Source of the DNA: Bacteroidota bacterium
Lineage (GTDB): Bacteria; Bacteroidota; Ignavibacteria; Ignavibacteriales; Melioribacteraceae
Direction of reading: 5' to 3'
Assembly: GCA_018829205.1 (NCBI GenBank)
Contig: JAHJUE010000035.1
Location: 124,001 to 188,000 of the forward strand
Length of the DNA stretch: 64,000 nucleotides
Shown one piece after another: positions 45,201 to 50,687 of this stretch (its first letter is position 1; the number at the start of each line of letters is the position of its first letter). A program made the position numbers and the translations under genes. The notes under the pieces were generated by a model. That model saw only the letters and a program-made list of their open reading frames with translations, was not told the origin of the DNA and searched no databases.

Positions 45201-45725
45201 ATGGAAATAAAAAAAATGGCATTTCTAGGCACCTACAACAGTGATGATTCTATTATGGGTGTTATTATGGTCACGGATTCTGAAACAAAACCTGTAGAAT
45301 TCAGGGTTACTTCATCAATTAAACCGACGAATTTTCAGAAAATATTATACGGCAATGTTCTCAAAGAACATATACTAGTGGAACTGGTAGCGCTACCATT
45401 ATTAAATGCTTTAAGTGAACAGCCGGACATCATATTAGTTAACGATCCCTTTTTTTTAGGGGCAAATTCAAAAGTAGATACAAGGGTTGTAAGAGTACTA
45501 TCCAAAAACCAGCAGAACGGGAATAAAGCTGCGAAACTGGAACTAAAATCATTGAATTCAAAGAATGAAACGATTTACATTGAATCGCCGGAAGAATTTG
45601 AAGATGAATTGCCCGGTATTTCGGAAGCAATAAATAAAATATCTTTGTACAGAGATATAATGGAACCGTTTGAAAGACTATCACTTGCCTGTGAACAGGT
45701 TCATTTAAAAAAGACTAAAGAATAA
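45201..45725 (+). CDS. Conserved hypothetical protein paired with degenerate SNF2-like protein
   Basis: 174 residues, cytosolic, mixed alpha/beta. The central stretch PVEFRVTSSIKPTNFQKILYG, followed by a helix HILVELVALPLLNALS and the strand-turn PDIILVNDPFFLG, looks like a conserved small domain, but I do not recognise a named family. There are no catalytic triads or metal motifs that I can identify. The CDS ends three bases before the 845-residue gene begins, so the two are surely co-expressed and probably functional partners. Confidence 0.82.
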   Translation: MEIKKMAFLGTYNSDDSIMGVIMVTDSETKPVEFRVTSSIKPTNFQKILYGNVLKEHILVELVALPLLNALSEQPDIILVNDPFFLGANSKVDTRVVRVLSKNQQNGNKAAKLELKSLNSKNETIYIESPEEFEDELPGISEAINKISLYRDIMEPFERLSLACEQVHLKKTKE

Positions 45726-45728
45726 TTT

Positions 45729-48266
45729 ATGTCTTCTAATTTAAGAGTTAAAGCTGCTCGAATTATTTCTAAAATTGGGCAGCCTGAGTCTTATTTGCTG
45801 AATCGTTTCCTGCATTCAATAAAAGAAAAACGAATTGAAATTGAAGGCATTATCTCCTATGTGCCTGATCCTCCGATAAATGATTTAAGTATTGAAAAGT
45901 CATCAATTGAATATGTCTTTTATTTTACAAAAGGCATCAGTAATAATAATATTTCTTATATAAGTTATTCCGATGTAAAGGTATTAATCCGTTTTTTTGA
46001 ATTTAAAAGAACGGAAACAGATATATACGAATGGAGCGGATTAAAAGCGGAATACTTTAATTTTCAAAGCGATATATTCCCAAGTGTAAAAGTCTTTGAA
46101 TTAAAACATTCGATTTTATCTTCAACCACAGAATCCTTCTCTTTATCTGAGAATAATACTAATATAGAATTAATTAATACCGAAATATCACCGCCGGATA
46201 TTTCAGATTATCTTTCAGAATTTGTTCCTGTAATTGAAAAAATTGAATTGTTAAATTCAAACGATTTGTTAAATAATATTTTCATTTCAGATTTAAACTT
46301 ATATTCCGGTAATTTGGATTTTAAAATTCTTGATATTCTTAAACTAAATGCAATTCAGATTACAAATGATTTTCCAATGATGGATTATCAGAATTTCGAC
46401 ATTACTACTTCTGCCGTCTGCTCTGTAAATATTGAACTTCCCGTAATTAATAAACCTGAAAAAGATTTAGTAAGCAAACCGAAGAATCATATTACTTATA
46501 ATTCTAAAACTGATTACAAAAATATTTTTGAACCAACGGATAAAAAGTTTGAAGAACTTTTAAACGAGATATTATCATATGTACCCGGCAGTATGCATGA
46601 AGGAATTAAATATTTAGTCCGCACCAATTATGCGTTATTTTACAATAATTTAAAGAATGACAAAGAGCTTCAAATAGTAATTGCTCTTAAAGTTCTTCTA
46701 GGTATGAAAGAAGTAAGAAACGTACTTATCATAACAAGCAATTATCAGGAAATGAATTGCAGTTATAGCGGCGGTCTGCAATATGAAAATGTCTGGCAAT
46801 CTAACATCAATAAATATTTAAGCGGATATATTTATAAAAATGAAAATAAATTCGACCGTACATTTGAAAAAGACGGCTTCAATAATAATATTATCAGCTG
46901 TATAAGTTATAATAAACTTGAAGAAGGCTGCATAACCGGAACTATTACAAATGAAATGCTGAATTCATTTGATTTAGTTATACTTGATGATTTTTATAAA
47001 GATGTGTATAGTCTTGACTCATTAAAACTTATAAACCATGATAATAATCTAAAATATTTATGGATATTAAGTAATACTTCAACCGAAAGCATGATTGAAA
47101 TATCTAATAAAATCTGGCCTGAAATAAATTTTAAATATTTAGATGAAGAAGTTAATCTATTGAATAGGTATGAATCAGATTATTTTCTTGATGTAAATAG
47201 TCATGTTGCAAATATAATAAATGAATGTTTTGAGAAAGGACAGAAAAAACTTGATGATTTAATACAGTTCGGAAGTCTTCTAAGATTTCAGCCGAATGTT
47301 TTTCAAATTATACACGATATACAAAAACAAGGGAATGTAATTTCAGGAAATACAGATGTTTCAAAAATAGATATCTTAATTTACCATGCTAATAAAATAT
47401 TTCTGAACACAAATAGGTTGCTCATTTATTCACAGTTTGACAAATCCGGATTGGAAGAAATTAAAACAGCTTTAGATGAAAATGGGATTAAAAATATTTC
47501 ATTCAAACAAAATGATTCTGAAAAGGATATAAATGATAAATTAAAACTATGCCATAATTATGACGGAAACTTGGTTTATTTAACAAACATAAGGCCAAAC
47601 GGAATTAGATTCAGGTTTCCAAATGTTTCGTATTTATTAAATTATGACAATTGGTGGAATCCGGCAACACGCTGGTCGCTCGAAAACCGTTTAGATAAAA
47701 TGAATTCTCCGTTAACCGTAATAAATTATTACATAAACAATTCTCATGAACAAAGACTGCACTATCAATTAAATAAGTTGGGATTGATAAACAAAAATAT
47801 TTTTGAAGTTATTCCGCCTGACAAATTTTATAATATTTTTGATGATAAATGCTGGGGCAATTTCTTTGATTTATCTTATGATATGTTTGTTAATAAAGAG
47901 TATCAAAATTATTCGATCATAAATATGATCGATTTAACGAACAAAGTTAAATTGTTTCTGCTTTATTTAGGTTATAAAGAAATAGAATTGAACGCGGGAT
48001 ATGATACCAATACTTATAATATTTCAGCATCGTTATCTTTAAGCGGAGAAAAAATAAAACTTTTTGTAAAATGTATTTATTCAAATCATATTAATTCTGA
48101 ATTAATTAATTCTTTATTAACGGAAAATAAAAAACAGGCAGACAAATATTTTATAATAACCAGCGGAAATATCTCGCATTCAAATTTAATTATACCGGAA
48201 AATGTAAGTCTTATTGACGGCGAACAGCTTAAAACCTATCTCAGTTTATTTAAAGTAGTTTTGTAA
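45729..48266 (+). CDS. Degenerate SNF2-helicase-like protein with Mrr-like C-terminal domain
   Basis: 845 residues. The N-terminal 270 are unrecognised. Residues 285-320 align with the SNF2 opening: MHEGIKYLVRTNYALF equals the Q-motif region, but the Walker A (usually GLGKT) reads KNDKE at 309-313. DLVILDDFYKD (415-425) sits at the DEAH box. Lobe 2 is clear: LLIYSQF (564-570) and YDNWWNPATRWSLENRLDK (639-657), where SNF2 proteins have DxWWNPAxxxQxxDRxHR; only the first arginine remains. Residues 735-845 resemble an Mrr-type nuclease: FIITSGNISHSN and LIDGEQL match, but catalytic Asp and Gln/Glu positions read Asn763 and Phe779, with Lys781 kept. Probably an inactive ATPase and nuclease. Codon use and AT content look like the neighbours. 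Confidence 0.85.
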   Translation: MSSNLRVKAARIISKIGQPESYLLNRFLHSIKEKRIEIEGIISYVPDPPINDLSIEKSSIEYVFYFTKGISNNNISYISYSDVKVLIRFFEFKRTETDIYEWSGLKAEYFNFQSDIFPSVKVFELKHSILSSTTESFSLSENNTNIELINTEISPPDISDYLSEFVPVIEKIELLNSNDLLNNIFISDLNLYSGNLDFKILDILKLNAIQITNDFPMMDYQNFDITTSAVCSVNIELPVINKPEKDLVSKPKNHITYNSKTDYKNIFEPTDKKFEELLNEILSYVPGSMHEGIKYLVRTNYALFYNNLKNDKELQIVIALKVLLGMKEVRNVLIITSNYQEMNCSYSGGLQYENVWQSNINKYLSGYIYKNENKFDRTFEKDGFNNNIISCISYNKLEEGCITGTITNEMLNSFDLVILDDFYKDVYSLDSLKLINHDNNLKYLWILSNTSTESMIEISNKIWPEINFKYLDEEVNLLNRYESDYFLDVNSHVANIINECFEKGQKKLDDLIQFGSLLRFQPNVFQIIHDIQKQGNVISGNTDVSKIDILIYHANKIFLNTNRLLIYSQFDKSGLEEIKTALDENGIKNISFKQNDSEKDINDKLKLCHNYDGNLVYLTNIRPNGIRFRFPNVSYLLNYDNWWNPATRWSLENRLDKMNSPLTVINYYINNSHEQRLHYQLNKLGLINKNIFEVIPPDKFYNIFDDKCWGNFFDLSYDMFVNKEYQNYSIINMIDLTNKVKLFLLYLGYKEIELNAGYDTNTYNISASLSLSGEKIKLFVKCIYSNHINSELINSLLTENKKQADKYFIITSGNISHSNLIIPENVSLIDGEQLKTYLSLFKVVL

Positions 48267-48842: not shown

Positions 48843-50687
48843 TTAATTAAATTCTTTAATTATTTTACCTTCATACCACAACTGATTAACCCTTACTGAT
48901 TTTCTTACTGAATTTACGAGAATGATTTCATCTGCGTTTAATAATAAATTCATATTAATCCGATCTTCTGAATAATCTTTATTTTCATCTAATAATTTCT
49001 TCCGATAAACACCATTTAATATTCCGCAGTTAATTGACGGGGTTATCCATTTGTTTTTATAAACGGCAAATATATTTGTAAAACTACCTTCTGCAATTTC
49101 ATCTTTTTCATTTAAATATATAACTTCATAAAATCCTTTGTCACCGTATTTTTTGAGTTCATCATCATAGATATTTCTATTTGTAGTTTTAAAATATTGG
49201 AATTTATTTTTTGAGTTTATTCGTTCTTGGGAAACAACTATTTTTATAAAAGTATTATTCGTTTCGACAAACGATTTTTGTATTTCAATTTGTCCCCATT
49301 TATCCAGTATAATTTTCAGTTTATAGTTTTTGTCTTTACCTGATCTATCAATAAAATCAAATATACTACTATAAATTTGACTGTAATCGAAATTAAACAA
49401 GAAATAATCGGAGGCTTCTTTTAATCTCTGCAGATGTTCTTCAAGTAAAAAAGGAATACCGTTTTCAACCAATATCGATTCAAGTAGTTTAAAATAAACA
49501 GACGGCTGAGTAAAAAATTTTGATTTTAATATTGTCTCTTGATATTCTTCTTCCGGATTGCTGTCCCAAACTATTCCGCTCCCTAATCCAATCTCCCCTT
49601 TTCCATTCTCTAATAATTTGATTGTTCTTATCGGCACATTAAATTTATAATTATTTTTATTGACTATACCAATAGCGCCGGTATAAATTCCCCGTTCTTG
49701 ATTTTCAAGTTGACTGATAATCTCCATTGTTCTGATTTTCGGCGCACCGGTAATTGATCCGCACGGGAATAGACTTTTAATAATATCGGGAAAGCTGTTT
49801 GTTTTTAATTGTGCTTTTACCGTAGATGTCATTTGAAACAAAGATTCATACTTTTCAATATTATAGTATGATTTTACATTTACACTGTTAAACTCTGATA
49901 TTTTACCAAGATCATTTCTAAGCAAATCCAATATCATTACATTTTCTGCACGGTCTTTTTTACTGTTGAATAATAAATCCGTTTTTAACTTATCTTCAAT
50001 TACATTTATTCCTCTTTTCACTGTTCCTTTCATTGGTTTAACCGTAACAGTATAATCTGAAACATCAAAGAATAATTCAGGTGATATTGAAATAATAAAT
50101 TCAGTTCCGTTATTTATTAGAGCAGAATATTCGGCGGATTGATTAAAAATTAAACTGAGGAATAATGATTGAGGATTGCCTTTAAAATCAAATTCCCCTT
50201 TAACTGTATAATTAACCTGATAGGTGTCTCCTTCTTTTATAAAATCGCGTATTCGATTTATATTATTTATATATGTTTTTTTATCGTCGCTTAACTTGAA
50301 ATTATCAATTAAATAATTGTTGTTTACGATAACCGTTTCAATATCTTTATATTCAATTTCAGTATTCTCAAATATTTTCACCTGATTGTTTTCAAAAAAG
50401 TAGAAAGTCATAATTGAAGAATCATTTTCATTAAATAAGCAATTGAGTTTATTTTCCAATAAGTACCCGGCTTCATAATTAATTAATCCGTATCCGGTTA
50501 AACCACTATCAAGCAAATTGCTAATAATGTTCAGCATTTCATAAAATTCAGTTTTATTTTTCGCTTCTATTGTTTTAACAGGTTTGTTAAATAGAATTGA
50601 TTTCCCGTTTTTATAAATTAATGGAGTATAAAAAAATGCGGAACCTCTGTTAGTATTAACAGAGTTTATTATATCTGTAATTTTCAT
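48843..50687 (-). CDS. pabB: Bifunctional aminodeoxychorismate synthase component I / 4-amino-4-deoxychorismate lyase (PabB-PabC fusion)
   Basis: 614 residues. The first about 375 are a chorismate-binding domain with VKPMKGTVKRG (PabB-type Lys), LDLLRNDLGKI and GSITGAPKIRTMEII. Residues about 390-614 are a class IV aminotransferase fold (PabC) with HLQRLKEASDYF, the PLP-lysine region FKTTNRNIYDD and DEIAEGSFTNIFAV. Together they make p-aminobenzoate, which feeds the folP product. The glutamine amidotransferase PabA is not in the window. Confidence 0.93.
   Translation of the reverse strand: MKITDIINSVNTNRGSAFFYTPLIYKNGKSILFNKPVKTIEAKNKTEFYEMLNIISNLLDSGLTGYGLINYEAGYLLENKLNCLFNENDSSIMTFYFFENNQVKIFENTEIEYKDIETVIVNNNYLIDNFKLSDDKKTYINNINRIRDFIKEGDTYQVNYTVKGEFDFKGNPQSLFLSLIFNQSAEYSALINNGTEFIISISPELFFDVSDYTVTVKPMKGTVKRGINVIEDKLKTDLLFNSKKDRAENVMILDLLRNDLGKISEFNSVNVKSYYNIEKYESLFQMTSTVKAQLKTNSFPDIIKSLFPCGSITGAPKIRTMEIISQLENQERGIYTGAIGIVNKNNYKFNVPIRTIKLLENGKGEIGLGSGIVWDSNPEEEYQETILKSKFFTQPSVYFKLLESILVENGIPFLLEEHLQRLKEASDYFLFNFDYSQIYSSIFDFIDRSGKDKNYKLKIILDKWGQIEIQKSFVETNNTFIKIVVSQERINSKNKFQYFKTTNRNIYDDELKKYGDKGFYEVIYLNEKDEIAEGSFTNIFAVYKNKWITPSINCGILNGVYRKKLLDENKDYSEDRINMNLLLNADEIILVNSVRKSVRVNQLWYEGKIIKEFN

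Follow-up and report, generated by a model that had tools for sequence, protein, structure and literature searches.

Two adjacent genes of Ignavibacteria encode proteins with predicted RNase H-like and SNF2 folds, the latter with eroded ATPase motifs

Two intact open reading frames lie on the plus strand between positions 45201 and 48266 of the window, by which we mean the whole analysed stretch of 64,000 nucleotides. The first (45201..45725) encodes a protein of 174 residues and the second (45729..48266) one of 845 residues, with an intergenic gap of 3 bp (TAA-ttt-ATG). A first-pass annotation made from the letters had given these coordinates and this spacing correctly, and every sequence string that it quoted was found. 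Scanning the locus for promoters and terminators yielded counts at or near chance.

The large protein can be divided into four parts, all encoded on the plus strand: an N-terminal tail with low model confidence and little conservation (residues 1-270, 45729..46538), SNF2 lobe 1 with eroded ATP-binding motifs (residues 271-475, 46539..47153), SNF2 lobe 2, which contains YDNWWNPA and is the best conserved domain (residues 476-715, 47154..47873), and a C-terminal Mrr-like domain (residues 716-845, 47874..48263). The SNF2 shape, already recognized in the first-pass annotation, was borne out by a profile of 17 Ignavibacterial big proteins, none of them with a complete motif set, which matched SNF2 structures at 5e-34. 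Structure prediction, which the annotation had proposed as a check, led to the same assignment: an AF2 model built on a 40-row alignment was mostly confident over residues 271-845 (the N-terminal 270 residues being mostly below a pLDDT of 50), contained both RecA-like lobes and matched the Sulfolobus SWI2/SNF2 core (1z63) with a Z of 26.0 and an rmsd of 4.3 over 401 residues. The protein is therefore predicted to adopt a two-lobed SNF2 fold. Pfam gave no significant match to it, Helicase_C staying below threshold, and PADLOC gave a weak DpdE match across lobe 2; among 40 members of the big-protein family, Helicase_C was matched in 37 and SNF2-rel_dom in 20.

Alignment with intact relatives confirmed the loss of Walker A and of the DEAH box, as well as the single remaining arginine of motif VI, all of which had been noted from the sequence. 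KNDKE (residues 309-313, 46653..46667) replaces GxGKT at Walker A, LDDF (residues 419-422, 46983..46994) replaces hDEA/DEAH at Walker B, and SNTS stands where the intact relatives have TGTP in motif III. In motif VI, WSLENRLDK (residues 649-657, 47673..47699) replaces QAEDRxHRIGQ, the first of the two arginines being kept and the second absent. None of the functional ATPase motifs I, II, III and VI is present in the 845-residue protein. Its C-terminus was modelled as an alpha-beta-beta-beta-alpha-beta core, a topology compatible with Mrr, and Pfam Mrr_cat matched 8 of the 40 family members (best E 1e-6), though not the window protein; the annotated Mrr-like end thus draws its support from relatives. 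The catalytic D...(D/E/Q)xK of Mrr is also missing from the window protein, which has N and FxK at these positions, as the annotation had noted; inspection by eye revealed a complete Asp plus (Q/E)xK set in no Ignavibacterial copy.

The partner had been described as an unfamiliar conserved domain three bases upstream. It is indeed conserved, with 49-78% identity to other Ignavibacterial copies, and a fold can now be predicted for it. The AF2 model (pLDDT 87.6, pTM 0.85) is RNase H-like, of the endonuclease V / Endo_dU type. The top VIA match was endonuclease V 3ga2 (Z 13.3 over 163 of the 174 residues, rmsd 3.1), followed by A. fulgidus 2qh9 (Z 12.8, 145 residues) and by Argonaute PIWI and UvrC at about Z 10. 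HerA-NurA chain 7f6d_G gave Z 9.0, and Foldseek was concordant (6ozi at 2.6e-5). Yet no sequence similarity to endonuclease V (PF04493) was detectable with hhalign against 33 EndoV-like sequences (probability 1.3%), and Pfam matched none of 34 small-protein members, PF01949 (DUF99) included; the link to endonuclease V is thus one of predicted fold only. Matches to citD and MTase_II were discarded as chance, being weak and not shared across the family.

In the small-protein alignment, the position of the first catalytic Asp, in strand 1, is occupied by Leu or Ile (Leu in the window protein), so that the tetrad is incomplete, unlike that of endonuclease V. E61 and E155 do not vary, and D82 hardly does; the topology of the model would place these three at tetrad positions. 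Endo_dU/DUF99 resembles the small protein in size (178 aa), fold and incomplete DEDD tetrad: 2qh9 is a member of this group and is reported to cut dU-containing DNA despite the incomplete tetrad (PMC11585767). It differs in that Pfam DUF99 does not match our protein and in that no pairing with SNF2 appeared in the passages of PMC11585767 consulted. The small protein could act by binding alone or as a nuclease of an unconventional kind. Distant homologues with no adjoining SNF2 gene were seen in small genomes of the cyanobacterial-phylum sample (L157, L158, L159 and L161), flanked by a sigma-factor-like gene and a gene of about 280-300 aa. Separately, 3 of 29 genomes of the order hold endonuclease-V-like proteins of 168-170 aa with apparently intact catalytic strings (L199, L200 and L201), a type absent from the window genome.

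The two genes belong together, as had been proposed. The small protein was found in 17 of the 58 genomes of the order, and the identical 17 hold the big protein at E<1e-20; in each of the 16 relatives examined, the small gene immediately precedes the big one. A scan of GTDB contigs widened the set to 47 loci (38 Ignavibacterial-type, 5 cyanobacterial and 4 of Persephonella), in which the genes adjoin apart from two loci of Persephonella and one remnant in Nostoc. In the two Persephonella genomes without linkage, an SNF2 protein of that subfamily, with 55-66% identity to the linked one, is encoded elsewhere. Among 136 Aquificota genomes, 30 have the small protein, 31 the SNF2 subfamily and 29 both, counts which are not independent trials because the genomes are related. 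The genes are on separate contigs in three Aquificota genomes with both; in the exceptional genomes, the match is partial, either on a short frame or at the edge of a contig. Within Ignavibacteriales, the genes occur patchily, in 14 of the 50 good genomes. Three loci deserve separate mention: an Ignavibacterial-type copy on a contig labelled Gammaproteobacteria, probably mis-binned (L062); a small-protein frame split in two in a Persephonella MAG, by true mutation or assembly error (L092:7998-8533); and a Nostoc mirabile ORF in which part of the small protein is fused to a fragment of SNF2 lobe 2, apparently a deletion remnant of the pair (L090:8097-8648).

Relatives that have the same partner and a fully intact motor had not been foreseen by the first-pass annotation. 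GTGKT, DEA(H/Q), (S/T)GTP and DRxHRIGQ are all present in the 24 of 24 full-length SNF2 proteins examined from Aquificota and cyanobacteria. By contrast, regular expressions applied without alignment, and the alignment itself, revealed (S/T)GTP or R.GQ in 0 of 35 Ignavibacterial big proteins, so the motif loss, whose conservation the annotation had advised checking, is conserved for motif III and the end of motif VI; 11 of the 35 keep GxGK(S/T). Parsimony on the small-protein tree indicated that motif III changed once and Walker A at least 5 times, the latter figure being approximate since some inner branches of this quickly built tree are weak. Walker A is absent in the window, L048 and L049 and present in the nearby L050. 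Because the Aquificota and cyanobacterial relatives with the same partner are intact, the loss is a derived state of one clade. Inactivation of the motor, as predicted from the motifs, is clade-wide in Ignavibacteria and was followed by repeated loss of Walker A, which we read as a single ancestral loss of the coupling motifs and then a relaxed constraint on ATP binding.

The copies that keep Walker A though all 35 have lost motif III and the end of motif VI raised the possibility of a regulated switch, in which the pseudo-SNF2 would act as an ATP-bound clamp that does not hydrolyse the nucleotide, binding being kept in part of the family and the window protein having gone one step further. 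We consider this distinctly unlikely, since Walker A has gone at least five times with the gene retained, which indicates that nucleotide binding is dispensable in those lineages.

Is the window copy simply decaying? The loss of catalytic residues and the fused remnant of Nostoc mirabile would fit a pseudogene pair, but Ignavibacterial full-length copies have open frames, dN/dS is well below 1 and the motif loss is common to a deep clade, and we regard decay as almost certainly wrong. In a Nelson-Gojobori-type estimate, in which more distant pairs were saturated, dN/dS was 0.07-0.15 for the big and 0.02-0.04 for the small protein in four close pairs (L077/L081, L071/L073, L065/L079 and L069/L070), and 0.10 and 0.05, respectively, in L069/L083; these ratios, rough because dS is partly well above 1, indicate purifying selection on both. 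Mean pairwise identity of the big protein was 34.5% in lobe 2, 26.7% in lobe 1, 21.9% in the tail and 22.5% in the C-terminus, and evolution is fast outside the core. The big protein is maintained, most strongly in the half without Walker A and B. Clade-wide motif loss together with the dN/dS of 0.07-0.15 argues for a pseudo-ATPase under selection rather than a decaying gene; the annotation had proposed as much, and we hold this view with great confidence on the basis of the sequences.

The genes around the pair in the window are of a housekeeping kind: complex I, cation efflux, ABC-F, NUDIX, a chorismate-binding/aminotransferase fusion, MFS and MacB/FtsX. The fusion (48843-50687) joins a chorismate-binding enzyme to a class IV aminotransferase and is pabB-pabC-like. 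In Ignavibacteriaceae, up to 17 loci share neighbours named by eye as a FeoB-like GTPase, a Fur-like regulator and a metallo-beta-lactamase-like protein, and a divergent dnaK is a common neighbour at many Aquificota loci. A look for defence genes nearby, as the annotation had advised, turned up no defence system among the ten neighbours scanned (37-56 kb of the window). A defence island was dismissed, as just two neighbours gave matches, an ABC-F type ATPase and a NUDIX protein, and these came from generic ATPase or NUDIX domains; cargo of a mobile element or phage was likewise dismissed, plasmids, phages and IMG/VR giving no matches.

These data bear on an anti-phage or conflict system, in which the SNF2-fold protein would detect foreign or modified DNA as a guard, with the exchangeable C-terminal domains as effectors. 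The C-terminal domains are clade-specific, being Mrr-like in Ignavibacteria and PNP_UDP_1 in three cyanobacteria, with none seen in Aquificota, and the phosphorylase superfamily is described as a signal-generating domain of conflict systems (PMC7159879); since the cyanobacterial phosphorylase domain of L086 also matches PADLOC effector models, a conflict role is conceivable. The patchy distribution would fit as well, as would the fact that ZorD and DpdE are the nearest PADLOC models of the intact SNF2 proteins. This similarity is, however, that of a common SNF2 core. ZorD of type I Zorya shares this core and, in PADLOC's description, an Mrr-like domain, but the window pair has another partner gene, its active sites are gone, that of the Mrr-like domain included, and no ZorA, ZorB or ZorC was found among the ten neighbours. 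Furthermore, the small protein is highly conserved (dN/dS 0.02-0.05), and the pair sits at conserved chromosomal sites next to feoB/fur-like or dnaK genes. The annotation's anti-phage guard has only indirect support, and neither defence neighbours nor relatives in phages, plasmids or IMG/VR turned up, and we judge it unlikely. The phosphorylase fusions themselves (L086:8544-11336, L088:8518-11349 and L089:8717-11353) are followed by a conserved gene of 184-196 aa; the SNF2 protein of L087 has a different C-terminal extension.

The stable chromosomal context might also suit an SNF2 factor that acts on RNA polymerase or chromosome proteins rather than on DNA structures or lesions, RapA being among the bacterial SNF2 proteins of known function (PMC8501970). 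Yet no RapA-specific domains were matched and a partner with an RNase H fold suggests nucleic acid rather than polymerase as the target, so that we give such a transcription-linked role little credence.

We favour, with a confidence just short of even, the view that the products of the two genes form a chromosomal complex, in which an ATP-independent DNA-binding scaffold carries an RNase-H-fold subunit for surveillance or repair of chromosomal DNA. The small subunit would have the endonuclease V / Endo_dU type of fold, and the large one would be an SNF2 motor turned pseudo-ATPase in Ignavibacteria only, motifs III and VI having presumably been lost once in the ancestor of the Ignavibacterial copies, and Walker A later in several independent events, one of them in the window's lineage. 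The two-lobed fold, which is kept, would most likely serve as an ATP-independent clamp or scaffold on duplex DNA, placing the small subunit and the catalytically eroded Mrr-like domain there, and the unit would act in chromosome surveillance or repair. That the dead motor is kept intact beside a much better conserved partner suggests such a DNA-binding scaffold. Linkage and co-occurrence, the split between clades in motor state, selection, lobe 2 conservation, the predicted small-protein fold and the housekeeping-like neighbourhoods speak for the complex. Against it stand the patchy Ignavibacteriales distribution, unusual for a core repair system, the endonuclease V link through predicted fold only, the fast evolution of the big protein outside its core and the cyanobacterial phosphorylase domain, often seen as an effector. 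In a possible though less probable variant, the small protein would belong to a new family of RNase-H-fold nucleases that, like Endo_dU, need no DEDD tetrad, and the SNF2 subunit would direct it to DNA, using ATP in Aquificota and Cyanobacteria but acting as a passive, ATP-independent scaffold in Ignavibacteria.

HerA-NurA offers a parallel to the pair, as it likewise combines a translocase with a small RNase H-fold subunit, but the class of ATPase differs and the motor of the pair appears dead in the window's clade. Known SNF2 ATPases (1z63; bacterial ZorD, DpdE, DrmD and RapA) have two RecA-like lobes alike, and all their motifs are found in the pair's intact relatives; unlike them, the window protein has lost Walker A, Walker B, motif III and the end of motif VI, and has a dedicated RNase-H-fold partner. 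Bacterial pseudo-helicases are known, e.g. Deinococcus PriA (PMC4504706). For an SNF2 pseudo-ATPase that extends over a clade beside a dedicated RNase-H-fold partner, with intact versions in other phyla, searches of the open-licence literature gave no relevant description, in line with the annotation, and the pair of small partner and SNF2 protein appears to be undescribed.

If the nuclease variant is true, the pair would represent a new kind of two-subunit machine for DNA processing and, throughout a clade, the conversion of a DNA motor into a scaffold. The natural series from an intact motor to one lost stepwise, with the same partner throughout, makes it possible to ask which SNF2 functions need no ATP. 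The small proteins form a conserved RNase-H-fold family (by prediction) that has no Pfam entry and accompanies SNF2 proteins in three phyla, and they may lead to a DNA-maintenance or conflict system not yet studied.

Finally, the N-terminal tails of intact SNF2 proteins of Aquificota and cyanobacteria (e.g. L163, L086 and L091) contain a recurrent [V/I]S-x-NL, often followed by P-x-[V/I]. It was observed 26 times against 0.5 expected from shuffling in Aquificota and 8 times against 0.2 in cyanobacteria, for a pattern picked post hoc in related sequences. The motif is a candidate for the site at which the small protein docks.
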